The notes under the pieces: generated by a model
Seen by the model: only the letters and a program-made list of their open reading frames with translations
Told to the model about the DNA's origin: nothing
Database searches by the model: none
Translations under genes and position numbers: made by a program
Shown here: positions 14,622 to 43,070 of the stretch, in pieces
How the letters are laid out: the number at the start of each line of letters is the position of its first letter
Numbering within the stretch: the first letter of the stretch is position 1
NCBI RefSeq assembly: GCF_000306785.1
Contig: NC_017955.1
Coordinates: 3,286,001-3,350,000 of the forward strand
Length of the DNA stretch: 64,000 nucleotides
Reading direction: 5' to 3'
Origin: Modestobacter italicus
GTDB taxonomy: Bacteria > Actinomycetota > Actinomycetes > Mycobacteriales > Geodermatophilaceae

Positions 14622-15598
14622 CGGTGCGCGTACCCGACGGCGTCGGCGAGCCGGGCGAACCCGCGCTGCGCGAGGGCCTCGGCGAGCTCGGCGTGGACCC
14701 GGGCAGGCGCCGAGGGGTCGTTGAAGACCGCCGTCCCGACCGAGACCGCGCTGGCGCCGGCGAGCACGAACTGCAGGGCGTCCAGGCCGCTGCGGATGCC
14801 GCCCATGCCGAGCACCGGCACCTCCGGCAGCGCCTGGTGCACCTGCCAGACGCAGCGCAGCGCGACCGGGCGGATCGCCGGGCCGGACAGCCCGCCGGTG
14901 ACCCCGCCCAGCACCGGGCGCATCGTGTCCGGGTCGATGACCAACCCGAGCAGGGTGTTGATCATCGACAGCCCGTCGGCGCCGGCCTCGCTGACCGACC
15001 GCGCGATCGCGACGATGTCGGTCACGTCCGGGCTCAGCTTGGCGTAGACCGGCTGGGCCGGGTCGGCGGCCTCCCGCACCGCGGCGACCACGTCGGCGGC
15101 GGCGACCGGGTCGCAGGCGAAGACCTCGCCGCGGCTCTCGACGTTCGGGCAGGAGATGTTGACCTCCAGCCCGAGCACGCCCGGCACGCCGCGCAGCCGG
15201 CTCGCCAGCTGGGCGAAGTGCTCGACCCGGGTGCCGGCGATGGACACGAACGCCCGGGCGCCGCGCCGGGCCAGCCAGGGCAGGTCGTCGGCGAGCAGGC
15301 CGTCGATGCCCGGCCCCTGCAGGCCGATGGAGTTGAGCATCCCGCTGGGCGTCTCGGCCATCCGCGGCGTGGGGCGGCCCGAGCGCGGCTGCAGCTGGAC
15401 CGACTTGGTCACCACCGCGCCGAGGGCACCCAGGTCGACGAACGGCTCGAGCTCCTGCCCGAACGCCGAGCACCCCGAGGCGGTCAGCACCGGGCTCGGC
15501 ACCGGCGCCCAGGCCAGCGCCGTCCCCATGTCCACGGTTTCGGCGCCGAAACCCGCGCCGGTTTCGGCGCCGAAACCGGGTACGTCGGTGGTGGTCAT
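14618..15598 (-). CDS. pyrD: Dihydroorotate dehydrogenase B, catalytic subunit, with inserted N-terminal repeat
   Basis: Oxidises dihydroorotate to orotate and passes electrons through PyrK. The 326-residue protein has FMN and substrate motifs LTASGCSAFGQE, TPRMAETPSGMLNSIGLQGP and NISCPNVESRG with the catalytic Cys of class 1B enzymes. Residues from about 8 to 21 read PGFGAETGAGFGAET and are encoded by two 18-bp palindromes; relatives begin the barrel soon after the start, so this looks like an in-frame insertion. ATG 15598 overlaps the pyrK stop (ATGA). Confidence 0.95.
   Translation of the reverse strand: MTTTDVPGFGAETGAGFGAETVDMGTALAWAPVPSPVLTASGCSAFGQELEPFVDLGALGAVVTKSVQLQPRSGRPTPRMAETPSGMLNSIGLQGPGIDGLLADDLPWLARRGARAFVSIAGTRVEHFAQLASRLRGVPGVLGLEVNISCPNVESRGEVFACDPVAAADVVAAVREAADPAQPVYAKLSPDVTDIVAIARSVSEAGADGLSMINTLLGLVIDPDTMRPVLGGVTGGLSGPAIRPVALRCVWQVHQALPEVPVLGMGGIRSGLDALQFVLAGASAVSVGTAVFNDPSAPARVHAELAEALAQRGFARLADAVGYAHR
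15536..15577. repeat. Twin 18-bp perfect palindromes within pyrD
   Basis: GGTTTCGGCGCCGAAACC occurs at 15536-15553 and again at 15560-15577, 6 bases apart. Each is its own reverse complement. Both lie inside the 5' coding end of pyrD and keep the frame. The second can be extended by one base pair on each side. This is typical of a palindromic dispersed repeat. Confidence 0.85.
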
Positions 15599-39258: not shown

Positions 39259-39265
39259 GGTTGCG

Positions 39266-39271
39266 ACGCTA
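39266..39271 (-). promoter_or_regulatory. Candidate -10 box for leaderless rarA
   Basis: TAGCGT on the minus strand ends 7 bases before GTG 39258, the same arrangement as at rpe, def and aroC. A -35 box is not obvious. Confidence 0.4.
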
Positions 39272-39293
39272 CCCGGGGGGCACGACAGTCCCC

Positions 39294-40154
39294 ATGCAGC
39301 AGCGGACCATCGGGTCGACCACCGTCAGCGCCATCGGCCTCGGGGCGATGCCCCTGTCGACCAAGGAGGACCGGCCCTCGCCGGAGGACGCGGTGGCCGT
39401 CGTGCACGCCGCCCTGGACGCCGGGGTGACGCTCGTCGACACCGCCGACGCCTACGCCGCCGACGAGGCCGAGTTCGGCCACAACGAGGAGGTGGTCGCC
39501 CGCGCGCTGGCCTCCTACGGCGGCGACACCTCCTCGGTGCTCGTCGCGACCAAGGGCGGGCACACCCGCGAGGGCCGGGACTGGTGGCTGGACGGGACGT
39601 CGTCCTACCTCCGCCGCGCCTGCGAGGGGTCGCTGCGCCGGCTCGGCGTCGAGGCGATCGGGCTGTACCAGTTCCACCGGCCCGACCCCGCGACGCCGTG
39701 GGAGGAGTCGATGGGCGCGCTGCGGTCGCTGCACGAGGACGGGCTGATCCGGATGGCCGGCATCTCCAACGCCGACGTCGACCAGATCGACGCCGCCCGG
39801 GCGATCGTCGGCGACGCGCTGTTCAGCGTGCAGAACCAGTTCTCCCCCGGCTGGCGGTCCTCGGCGGGCGAGCTCGCGCACTGCGCCGCGCACGGGCTGG
39901 CCTTCCTGCCGTGGAGCCCGTTCGGCGGGGTCTCGGCGGCGAAGCAGCTGGGATCGGCGGCCGACGAGTTCGCCGCCGTCGCCGACGAGCTGGGGGTGTC
40001 GGTCTACCAGGTGACGCTGGCCTGGCACCTCGCCCAGGCCGACGTCGTCGTCCCGATCCCGGGCGCCTCCCGACCGGCGTCGATCGTCGACTCCGCCGCC
40101 GCCGCCGACCTCGTCCTGCCCCCCGAGCACCTCGCCCGCCTGAACGCCGCCTGA
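39294..40154 (+). CDS. Aldo/keto reductase
   Basis: An NADP-dependent TIM-barrel oxidoreductase of 286 residues, substrate unknown. The catalytic tetrad is visible: Asp in [11 protein letters not shown] with the following Tyr, Lys in [14 protein letters not shown] and His in LYQFHRPDP. The NADP site ISNADV and [10 protein letters not shown] near the C-terminus are typical. ATG 39294 gives [17 protein letters not shown], the family start; an upstream in-frame ATG-like reading from 39261 is unlikely. It ends 9 bases before palindromic element 1. Confidence 0.9.
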
Positions 40155-40163
40155 GCTCGCACC

Positions 40164-40227
40164 AGTTGATCATCGGCAAGTGGTCGTCGGTGGCCGCGTG
40201 TCGGGCAGCCACCTGCCGATGATCAAC
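40164..40227. repeat. Palindromic element 1 (19-bp arms)
   Basis: Left arm 40165-40183 (GTTGATCATCGGCAAGTGG) pairs with right arm 40209-40227 with one mismatch and a 25-base loop. Element 2 at 41211-41275 has the same arms, the same overall length and a different loop. Position 40178-40214 is an A-T pair where element 2 has G-C, so pairing is kept. It lies 9 bases after an aldo/keto reductase stop. Confidence 0.85.
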
Positions 40228-40349
40228 ACCTAGGCGGGCTGGAGGCACAGTCGGGCGTGGGTGGGGCGCTGGCGTCCACAACCGCTGGCTGCTTCCACAG
40301 GTGGCGGTGGGGCCTGGCGGGCCACCGGCCTGCCGCTGAACCTGTCGGC

Positions 40350-41216
40350 ATGCCCGACCTGTTCACTACAGCCACTGCACGTTCGGCGGGGCTCAGCCGG
40401 TCGATGCTGCGCGGGTCCTCGTTCGTGCGGCTCGCCCACGGCCTGTACGTGCGGCTCGACGATGCGATCGACGTCCCTGAGCGACTGGCCATGCTGGCCA
40501 CGGTCCTGCCCGACGACAGCGCCTTCAGCCACCACACGGCGGCAGCGCTCCTCGACGCGCACGTCGACTTCCCGCCGCGGGCGCACGTGGCCGTGACCCC
40601 ACGCCGGGTCCTCCCGCAGCACGCCGGGGTCCTCGTGCACGCCCGCCGGCTGCAGCCCCGGGACGTCGTGCTGCGGCGGGGGCTGCGGGTGACCTCGGGG
40701 GCGCAGACGTTCCTCGACCTGGCGGCCCTCCTCCCCCCGGCCGAGCTGGTGGCCGTCGGGGACGCGCTCACCCGGGCCGGGCACCTGGACGACGCCCGGC
40801 TCACCGAGCGGCTGTCCCGGGCGGGCCGGGTCCGCGGTGTGGTGCGGGCGCGCGCCTGCGCACCGCTGCTCGACGCCCGGTCGGCGTCCCGGCCGGAGAG
40901 CCTGATCCGCTGCTGGCTGGTGTGGAGCGACCTGCCCGACCCCGAGCCCCAGGTGCCGGTGCACGACCGGTACGGCCGGATCGTGGCCCACGGCGACCTG
41001 GGGTACAGCCGCTGGAAGGTCCTCACCGAGTACGAGGGCGCCCAGCACGCCGAACGGGACCAGTTCGGCCGCGACATCGACCGCTACTCGCTCATGGCCG
41101 CCGACGGGCACCTGGTGCTGCGCTTCGCAAGCCCGCACCTGCACGGCCCAGAGACCGTGGTCACCCGCACCCGAGGCGCCCTCCTCAGCCGAGGCTGGCG
41201 ACCCGGCACCAGTTGA
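40350..41216 (+). CDS. AbiEi-like winged-helix / DUF559-like nuclease-fold protein
   Basis: A 288-residue accessory protein. The N-terminal part (FTTATARSAGLSRSMLRGSS, LAHGLYVRL) resembles the winged-helix antitoxin-like domain of AbiEi; the middle (GLRVTSGAQTFLDLAALLPP) is typical of large actinobacterial families; the C-terminal third resembles the Vsr/DUF559 restriction-endonuclease fold, with possible acidic site residues E183, D216, E227 and E229 (RPESLIRCW, GDLGYSRWKVLTEYEG). No toxin partner is adjacent. ATG 40350 has no clear ribosome-binding site; GTG 40257 adds 31 unrelated-looking residues. The stop codon is supplied by palindromic element 2. Confidence 0.75.
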   Translation: MPDLFTTATARSAGLSRSMLRGSSFVRLAHGLYVRLDDAIDVPERLAMLATVLPDDSAFSHHTAAALLDAHVDFPPRAHVAVTPRRVLPQHAGVLVHARRLQPRDVVLRRGLRVTSGAQTFLDLAALLPPAELVAVGDALTRAGHLDDARLTERLSRAGRVRGVVRARACAPLLDARSASRPESLIRCWLVWSDLPDPEPQVPVHDRYGRIVAHGDLGYSRWKVLTEYEGAQHAERDQFGRDIDRYSLMAADGHLVLRFASPHLHGPETVVTRTRGALLSRGWRPGTS

Positions 41217-41275
41217 TCATCGGCGAGTGGCTGCTCGCCACGCCGGCAGCGGCAGCCACACGCCGATGATCAACT
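41211..41275. repeat. Palindromic element 2 (24-bp arms)
   Basis: Left arm 41211-41234 pairs with right arm 41252-41275 with a single A-A mismatch (41226/41260) and a 17-base loop. It shares its arms with element 1. The TGA stop of the nuclease-like gene (41214-41216) is part of the left arm, and the aspS stop on the other strand is 20 bases beyond, so it sits between convergent genes. Confidence 0.88.
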
Positions 41276-41294
41276 GCCCCGCGGGAGGGTGGGG

Positions 41295-43070
41295 TTACTT
41301 CGTGGGGTCGGTCGGGCCGGGGGCGCCGGGCTCGGCCGGCAGGCTGGGCTCCTCGGGGACGAAGTCGATGCCGGCCTCCACCCGCTGGGCGTCGGAGATC
41401 GGCGTCGGCGCGCCGGTCAGCGGGTCGTAGCCGGCGCCGGTCTTCGGGAAGGCGATGACCTCGCGGATCGAGTCGACGCCGGCCAGCAGCGCGGTGAGCC
41501 GGTCCCAGCCGATCGCGGCACCGGCGTGCGGCGGCGGACCGTAGGCGAAGGCCTCCAGGAAGAAGCCGAACCGCTCCCGGGCCTCCTCCTGCGACATCCC
41601 GATGACCTCGAAGACCCGCTCCTGCAGCGCGGCGTCGGCGATCCGGACCGACCCGCTCATCAGCTCGTTGCCGTTGCACACCAGGTCGTAGGCGTCCGAC
41701 AGCGCCGCGCCCTTGTCCTCGGCGAACCGCTCCCGCCACTCCGGGGTGGGCGAGGTGAAGGGATGGTGCATGAAGGTCCAGTCGCCGTCCTCGGTCTCCT
41801 CGAACATCGGGAAGTCCACGACGAACAGGAACGACCAGGAGCCCGGCTCGATCAGCTCCAGCCGCTTGGCGACCTCGTTGCGCGCGGCGCCGAGCAGCTC
41901 CTGCGACGACCTCCGGGGCCCGGCGGCGAAGAACACGCAGTCGCCCGGCTTCGCGCCCACGGCCTCGACCAGCCCGGCCCGCTCGGACTCGGAGATGTTC
42001 TTGGCCACCGGGCCGCCGAGGGTGCCGTCCTCGGCGATGGTGACGTACGCCAGGCCCTTGGCGCCGCGGGAGCGGGCCCAGTCCTGCCAGGCGTCGAACG
42101 CGCGCCGCGGCTGCGAGCCACCGCCGGGCATCACGATCGCCCCGACGTAGGGCGACTGGAACACCCGGAACGGCGTCTCGGCGAAGTAGGAGGTCAGTTC
42201 GGTCAGCTCGATGCCGAACCGCAGGTCGGGCTTGTCCGACCCGAACCGGTCCATCGCCTCGCGGTAGGTCATCCGCGGGATCTCCGGGACGGCGTAGGAG
42301 GCCAGCTCCTGCCACAGCGAGCGGATGACGTCCTCGGCCACGGCCAGCACGTCGTCCCGGTCGACGAAGCTCATCTCGAAGTCCAGCTGGGTGAACTCCG
42401 GCTGCCGGTCGGCGCGGAAGTCCTCGTCCCGGAAGCAGCGGGCGATCTGGTAGTACCGCTCCAGGCCGCCGATCATCAGCAGCTGCTTGAACAGCTGCGG
42501 CGACTGGGGCAGCGCGTACCAGGAGCCCGGCTGCAGCCGGACCGGGACGACGAAGTCCCGCGCCCCCTCGGGCGTCGACCGGGTCAGGTTCGGCGTCTCG
42601 ACCTCGGTGAACCCGTGGCCGGCCATCACCCCGCGGGCGATCCGGTTGATCTCCGACCGCAGCCGGAGCACCGCCGCCGGGCCCTGCCGGCGCAGGTCGA
42701 GGTAGCGGTACTTGTAGCGGACGTCGTCACCGGCCGCCTGCGCGGTCTCGATGGGGAACGGCAGCGGCGCGGACGCCGACAGCACCTGCAGGGTCGAGGC
42801 GACGACCTCGACCTCACCGGTCGGCAGCTCCGGGTTCTCGTTGCCGGCCGGGCGCTGCTGCACCTGCCCGGTCACCAGCACGCAGTACTCGTTGCGCAGC
42901 GCGTGCGCCTCCTCCTCGCGGACGACGACCTGGGCGTAGCCCGAGGCGTCGCGCAGGTCGAGGAAGACGACCCCGCCGTGGTCGCGCCGGCGGGCGATCC
43001 AGCCGGCGAGGGTGACCGTGGAACCGGCGTCGGTCGCGCGGAGCGCGCCGGCGTCGTGGGTGCGGAGCAA
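41295..43070 (-). CDS. aspS: Aspartyl-tRNA synthetase
   Basis: Class II synthetase charging tRNA-Asp (and possibly tRNA-Asn). The 591-residue protein has the N-terminal OB anticodon domain ([20 protein letters not shown]), motif 1/2 ([29 protein letters not shown]), the bacterial GAD insert, and motif 3 ([13 protein letters not shown]). The start is TTG 43070 ([10 protein letters not shown]), with AAAGG about 8 bases upstream and no better candidate. It converges on the accessory nuclease-like gene and follows an aldo/keto reductase. Confidence 0.96.

Follow-up and report, generated by a model that had tools for sequence, protein, structure and literature searches.

Introduction

Why should a nuclease gene stand between two copies of one palindrome, and what might the one have to do with the other? 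The question is raised by a locus of Modestobacter italicus, in a stretch of 64,000 nucleotides which we call the window, where a gene for a protein of 288 amino acids, with an AbiEi-like part and a nuclease domain of the EDxHD (Vsr-type, DUF559) kind, is bracketed by two 63-bp palindromes. A preliminary description, made from the letters of the window, had taken gene and palindromes for a small cassette. By comparing homologous loci, dispersed copies of the palindromes and the corresponding sites of related species, we observe that clades of this protein are mostly bracketed by, and tend to reside in the same genomes as, dispersed copies of a palindrome of their own. We regard it as probable that the gene and its palindromes form a cassette of a large actinobacterial family that spreads its own palindromes, through predicted binding and likely cutting. 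The association of a small cassette with palindromes is supported by the bracketing, by palindromes that are specific to protein clades and by a copy number that tracks the cognate gene.

Results

Palindromes beside the homologous genes

We examined the best 80 of 241 homologue matches, mostly from Geodermatophilaceae with a few others (Arthrobacter, Actinomadura, Fodinicola), a set that includes seven frameshifted or truncated gene copies and one contig edge. With palindromes called at a score of at least 11, 51 loci have one on both sides, 12 upstream only, 11 downstream only and six on neither; at least one side is thus occupied in 74/80, as against 27/800 random flanking windows of 200 bp. 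Genes standing without a nearby repeat, which the preliminary description had named as a pattern that would speak against its reading, are limited to those six. The arms of the upstream and downstream palindromes agree in 11.9 of 14 within one locus vs 8.3 across loci, and protein identity rises with arm similarity over the 51 both-sided loci (rho 0.486, reached in 0/500 permutations). The class A palindrome of the window flanks both sides in 16 of the 24 Geodermatophilaceae loci whose genes are 66-75% identical (L037-L060, in our numbering of loci); by that pattern the other eight have one class A side, none, or a contig end. Palindromes sought de novo gave additional pairs at some of these eight loci; more distant homologues have pairs that differ in sequence. 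Since each version of the gene has a different palindrome, the protein probably recognises the one that goes with it, and would help it to spread.

The layout is compact. Cassette length is 1077-1214 bp (median 1104) in the 51 loci, 30 of which have the stop codon overlapped by the downstream palindrome, and the upstream palindrome lies 105-133 bp before the gene in the middle half. The motif GACACG or its complement occurs in the inner part of 67/102 palindromes, vs 3/102 after one shuffle, and is common to the classes. Its orientation at the two ends is inverted in 12/16 cassettes of class A and the same in 5/8 of class B and 8/8 of class C, the rest being mostly not callable.

The family reaches well beyond Geodermatophilaceae. 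Among 296 genomes drawn evenly from the Actinomycetes, with at most 8 candidates scored per genome, 192 genomes and 89/115 genera contain a member at E 1e-25 or better. At 29 loci outside Geodermatophilaceae (one per best-matching genome, with stretches of about 420 and 260 bp scanned), palindromes stand on both sides in 17 and on at least one side in 28, against 22/290 random windows of 300 bp. Arms agree in at least 11 of 14 in 13/17 of these pairs, the best pair being chosen, vs 8% of mixed pairs. One of these outside loci (L272) shares its palindromes with a locus of the 80 (L170), and the two sets are not wholly separate.

Dispersed copies and the resident gene

The whole 5.58-Mb genome of Modestobacter italicus, a single contig, holds nine copies of the element with at most three mismatches, their 63-bp length being fixed by the search pattern, and none of the reversed control pattern. 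The six perfect-arm copies are all 63 bp even when a gap of 20-40 nt is allowed, and one extra class A arm, at 1649521, has no partner. Across 112 Geodermatophilaceae genomes, class A (GTTGATCATCGGC-N37) was found in 53, class B (TGATCATGGGC-N46) in 30 and class C (GAGTGNGCAGTTG-N40) in 52, and the reversed controls of all three gave 0 throughout. The preliminary description had held that arms absent elsewhere would undo its reading; they are plainly present elsewhere.

The number of solo copies follows the gene, a link that the preliminary description had proposed to check. In the 84 of the 112 genomes with gene flanks covered, leaving out copies at the gene itself and counting a cognate gene at a cut-off of E 1e-30, the mean number of solo class A copies is 6.91 in 22 resident genomes vs 1.11 in 62 others; the means are 7.62 in 16 vs 0.57 in 68 for class B and 5.50 in 22 vs 1.13 in 62 for class C. 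When labels were permuted within genera, 0/5000 permutations reached the observed difference in each of the three classes, and Fisher tests on at least three copies gave 2.5e-6, 1.2e-12 and 6.8e-7. Within the genus of the window, class B copies occur in 5/5 B-resident genomes and in 0/13 of the others covered. The association is far above chance for the three classes; its exceptions, copies where no cognate gene was found, are weighed in the Discussion.

The palindrome as the dispersed unit

The clearest view of dispersal comes from another genus (g53, of family f22), whose cassettes carry GTTGATCTTGGAGT palindromes of about 72 bp (L270, L271, L274, L276, L281, L299-L318). Exact-arm copies number 72, 54, 46, 43, 36, 11, 11, 3, 3, 1 and 0 in the 11 genomes of this genus and 1 in total in the other 11 of the 22 genomes searched, with 0 for the control. 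Among 20 copies fetched from the genome with 72 (G255), three have the same 72 bp but unrelated flanks, and 49 pairs are at least 93% identical, flank similarity at E 1e-5 being found for one pair only. Close identity stops at the palindrome ends, except for a G-rich bias on the right and C-rich stretches on the left, as if the copies had been inserted in terminator-like hairpins. Because identical copies have unrelated flanks and their identity ends with the palindrome, we conclude that the palindrome is the dispersed unit.

We compared 60 distinct class A 63-mers, selected by their outer arms, whose constancy is thus built in. At several other positions pairing survives changes on both sides, a pattern compatible with a hairpin and with a two-fold protein site alike. 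We examined 37 class A loci, a few of which are cassette ends, with simple open reading frame (ORF) calls and no expected proportions; two could not be placed, and of the other 35 copies 16 lie between convergent genes, 19 between tandem genes and none between divergent genes, at a median of 15 bp from the flanking stop codon. Strong hairpins behind stop codons, like the C-rich and G-rich borders in G255, would also suit ordinary terminators, or repeats resembling REPs (repetitive extragenic palindromes) or MITEs (miniature inverted-repeat transposable elements), moved by an unrelated transposase, with the gene carried along between two of them. Such a passenger gene is the least credible of the explanations considered here, since palindrome class follows nuclease clade within and between genera, since cassette length and the stop codon inside the downstream palindrome are kept so regularly, and since the same layout recurs in distant lineages.

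One slot, different cassettes and empty sites

In 60/80 loci the cassette adjoins an aldo/keto reductase gene, rarA or aspS. Three sister species with a gene in the slot of the window, between the reductase and aspS, have strongly conserved borders (aspS 96.1, 97.1 and 98.3% identical; reductase 92.0, 92.3 and 93.7%), slot genes that are 59.6, 53.2 and 61.6% identical, and palindromes of class B, C and B. From left to right, base identity is 89-91% at the end of the reductase, 46-59% from its stop to the gene, 52-55% over codons 1-110, 69-76% over the remaining codons, 43-64% from the gene to aspS and 89-94% in aspS; in the protein, residues 1-110 are 34-38% and residues 111-288 are 64-75% identical. 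By this profile the greatest differences fall in the palindromes and the AbiEi-like half, between conserved borders, as if the reading part had changed along with the palindrome, and an exchange of cassettes at a shared slot is the simplest reading.

The preliminary description had suggested that relatives might show an empty junction between reductase and aspS, and one does: in G111 (locus L193) the two genes meet without the nuclease gene, with one solo palindrome within about 110 bp, which makes this junction a candidate target for cleavage of the allele that lacks the element. Gene remnants lie at the slot in L176, L185 and L194, and in other genomes that lack the gene, different genes lie between the slot borders (20 genomes fetched).

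We also looked up six solo sites of the Modestobacter italicus genome in eight species of the same genus. By our reading, class A occupies 5/18 site-species pairs in the three A-resident species and 0/30 in the other five; class B, 2/12 in B-resident species and 0/36 in others; class C, 1/18 in C-resident species and 0/30 in others. Gaps in the flank alignments weaken some of these absences (right flank 0/8 at 2020481, left flank 1/8 at 3157041). At 4809546 our genome and G086 carry class A and G085 and G092 carry class B; G087, G101 and G102 show an empty site, as does, less cleanly, G089.

Several of these results would also follow if a cassette could copy itself only into a solo palindrome at the corresponding place, the solo copies being footprints of lost cassettes: the nuclease has the fold of EDxHD homing endonucleases, sister species have different cassettes in the slot, gene remnants occur there, and G111 has a single palindrome where others have palindrome, gene and palindrome. 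The 72 solo-type copies of one genome, many of the 20 examined being near-identical with unrelated flanks, are many and alike for such footprints, and several solo sites are empty in sister species; we therefore think such homing alone very unlikely.

As a separate observation, several palindrome families of other kinds, among them GGCCATGTTGGCCAACATGGCC, ACAGAAATGGCCATTTCTGT and ATCAGGTCACCTGAT and some in pairs, occupy the intergenic sites of sister species that are orthologous to 632015 and 1000541 of our genome (L202-L204, L207, L208, L241, L244, L245), hinting at rapid turnover of further systems.

The protein

The earlier assignment of the protein to AbiEi-like and DUF559-like families is borne out. 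AbiEi models match its N-terminal part at 1e-16, and by fold it qualifies as AbiEi-like; DUF559 scores 19.9 bits, just under the cut-off of 20.6, and is found at E 0.01 or better in 15 of 18 aligned homologues. The predicted structure joins the AbiEi-like part to an EDxHD/Vsr-type nuclease domain like that of the homing endonuclease I-Bth0305I, and judging from this model the family would possess both the catalytic fold and its residues, which are conserved among 103 proteins (E183 in 102, D216 in 101, H233 in 101 and D242 in 102). A Pfam scan of 18 members at E 0.01 gave DUF559, AbiEi_1 and MTES_1575 only and no known transposase domain, and the alignment of 18 sequences has no conserved HUH motif, the single HLH of the window protein not being kept. 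Arm similarity correlates with protein identity in either part (0.438 for the N-terminal, 0.385 for the C-terminal one), and this measure does not single out the part that reads the DNA. Three loci (L062, L064, L065) combine a similar C-terminal nuclease with a clearly different N-terminal third, and their palindromes differ in the inner arm, as would be expected of an N-terminal part that reads DNA.

AbiEi proteins are described as binding inverted repeats via a winged-helix domain, and AbiEi and Rv2827c as autoregulating through 23-bp inverted repeats that they bind (PMC7319586). The palindromes might accordingly be operators by which the AbiEi-like part would keep its own gene and a regulon repressed, the nuclease domain being incidental, and the palindrome 105-133 bp upstream of the gene is suitably placed for this. 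We hold this to be quite unlikely, since no placed class A copy lies between divergent genes and the copies keep close to stop codons, a second palindrome stands at the gene's own stop in 30/51, a genome may have up to 72 copies, some identical with unrelated flanks, and 101-102 of 103 proteins retain the nuclease residues. Autoregulation through the upstream palindrome could nevertheless occur alongside spreading.

The AbiEi models are defence models and the nuclease fold is of the Vsr type, and these would equally suit an enzyme that patrols DNA in defence or repair, with the palindromes as recognised, protected or sequestering sites that have no role in spread; that the class of solo palindrome at orthologous sites goes with the resident gene points the same way. 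The neighbours in the window are the aldo/keto reductase gene and aspS, with no modification, toxin (AbiEii included) or defence gene, a scan of viral contigs found no relative, and identical solo copies at different places require a spreading mechanism. A guarding role without spread appears unlikely to us.

The cassette in the window

The coordinates are collected in Table 1. Two palindromes with near-identical arms had been described around the gene, and both are confirmed; their length, given as 64-65 bp, is 63 bp each, the symmetry of the downstream one extending to 41210-41276. In each, a second stem lies inside the near-identical 13-bp outer arms (GTTGATCATCGGC/GCCGATGATCAAC). They fold with z-scores of -4.8 and -8.5 (+ strand) and -6.4 and -8.8 (- strand), and none of these four values was reached in 200 shuffles. 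The window contains exactly four perfect arms, all belonging to these two palindromes, and 13 arm matches with at most two mismatches vs a mean of 0.83 in 100 shuffles. The centre of the upstream palindrome is GCGTGTCGG, the class motif in inverted form. The placement between aldo/keto reductase and aspS is likewise borne out; close identity of the reductase to the sister species ends at or just past its stop. The gene is not solitary as had been stated: the genome has five further homologues, three of which (L022, L023, L024) have palindrome pairs of their own. Elsewhere in the window, at 14933-14969, lie closely spaced, imperfect inverted arms (GTTGGTCATCGAC / GTTGATCATCGAC) related to class A.

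Table 1. Cassette and slot borders in the window
Feature	Position	Strand	Remarks
Aldo/keto reductase, left slot border	39261..40154	+	ORF from TTG; true start may lie inside
Upstream palindrome, class A	40165..40227		63 bp; GTTGATCATCGGC-37 nt-GCCGATGATCAAC
AbiEi-like / EDxHD (Vsr-type, DUF559) nuclease gene	40350..41216	+	ATG start, 288 aa; GTG upstream at 40257 possible
Downstream palindrome, class A	41212..41274		63 bp; contains TGA stop of nuclease gene (41214-41216)
aspS, right slot border	41295..43070	-

Discussion

The observations are the bracketing, the clade-specific palindromes, the co-occurrence of solo copies with the gene, the different cassettes of one slot, the empty sites and the identical solo copies. 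From them we infer an enzyme that binds its palindrome, cuts it and sets it moving. The fused protein, acting as a dimer, would read the two outer arms through its AbiEi-like part, and the EDxHD domain would cut or nick the palindrome near the asymmetric centre GACACG. Repair or copying would then place a new palindrome, mostly 10-25 bp past a stop codon, where insertion is tolerated, and the two palindromes of a cassette would allow its exchange, or its loss by recombination that leaves one palindrome behind.

A number of our results weigh against the cassette as a spreader of its own palindromes. Six of the 80 loci have no palindrome at the thresholds used, and the paralogues L021 and L025 of our genome are without a clear pair. 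Copies occur in non-resident genomes (class A 23/62, B 13/68, C 23/62), with at least three copies in 10/62, 6/68 and 13/62; G017 has ten class A copies with no cognate gene found, and the Modestobacter italicus genome itself contains four of class C. Some of these may come from paralogues below the E cut-off of 1e-30 and some from lost genes. As for GTTGATCTTGGAGT, G285 has a gene of the family and no copy, and G245 has 43 copies and one weak match to the protein family, possibly an orphan palindrome population. The ends of the cassette are mostly inverted in class A, yet they point the same way in most class B cassettes and in every one of class C. Partial correlations (0.32 for the N-terminal vs 0.24 for the C-terminal part) do not map recognition cleanly to the N-terminus, and the winged helix, residues 1-39, is barely covered by the fold comparison. 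At the slot, fast divergence in place could stand in for exchange, because the second half of the gene retains part of its similarity (69-76% of bases). Finally, comparison with the empty sites shows no target-site duplication, though the sister species are too diverged to exclude one.

The comparison with RAYTs (REP-associated tyrosine transposases), made in the preliminary description, holds for layout and behaviour and fails for ancestry, the enzyme being unrelated. RAYT genes invariably stand between two inverted REPs (PMC2817692; PMC3733652), whose head is GTAG or GTGG; REP copy number usually exceeds 100 per genome (PMC2817692). Both systems have a gene between two palindromes of a type dispersed in the same genome, a palindrome sequence that tracks the protein clade, extragenic position, and palindromy kept by compensating changes (PMC2817692; PMC3733652). 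Unlike the HUH-tyrosine enzyme (IS200/IS605 type) of RAYTs, the enzyme here is AbiEi-like/EDxHD; copies begin and end GTTGATC...GATCAAC, or class equivalents, with no GTAG/GTGG head; most palindromes measure 55-75 bp, whereas REPs measure 20-40; cassette ends are inverted mainly in class A; and copies are fewer, nine in Modestobacter italicus and at most 72 (exact arms) elsewhere. Since layout and behaviour are common to both and enzyme and head are not, the system is not a RAYT, though it works like one; by this analogy, its working principle would have a known counterpart.

Other relatives are more partial. The target on which I-Bth0305I dimerises spans nearly 60 bp (PMC3943268), close to the 63-74 bp of most palindrome classes; unlike I-Bth0305I and Vsr, the system here has no intron, and it has an AbiEi-like part, a cassette bracketed by whole sites and many dispersed sites. 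It differs from the AbiEi antitoxins (type IV toxin-antitoxin) and Rv2827c in that no AbiEii toxin gene is adjacent, a nuclease domain is fused and the palindromes are dispersed in the genome, and from insertion sequences and MITEs in that the cassette family has no known transposase domain. In the literature searched, mostly without subscription journals, we found no description of an AbiEi-like/EDxHD palindrome system, and an earlier one may exist. Neither enzyme nor repeat belongs to any palindrome-spreading system that we found described.

On balance we lean, somewhat less firmly than to the cassette itself, towards a selfish, class-wide and convergent counterpart of REP-RAYT, in which each AbiEi-like/EDxHD clade would have one two-fold symmetric palindrome of 55-75 bp, dimers would read and cut it and seed tens of solo copies behind stop codons, cassettes would be exchanged at fixed slots, and fast co-evolution would make the systems of sister species mutually foreign. 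If this is true, a widespread nuclease family of 'unknown function' gains a target and a role, and the recognition site of each protein would be readable from the DNA at its own flanks. Palindrome-spreading nucleases would have arisen a second time, from an unrelated enzyme, and dispersed palindromes of actinobacteria would be explained. The family would also offer many natural pairs of a nuclease and a long symmetric site from which to learn how DNA is read.
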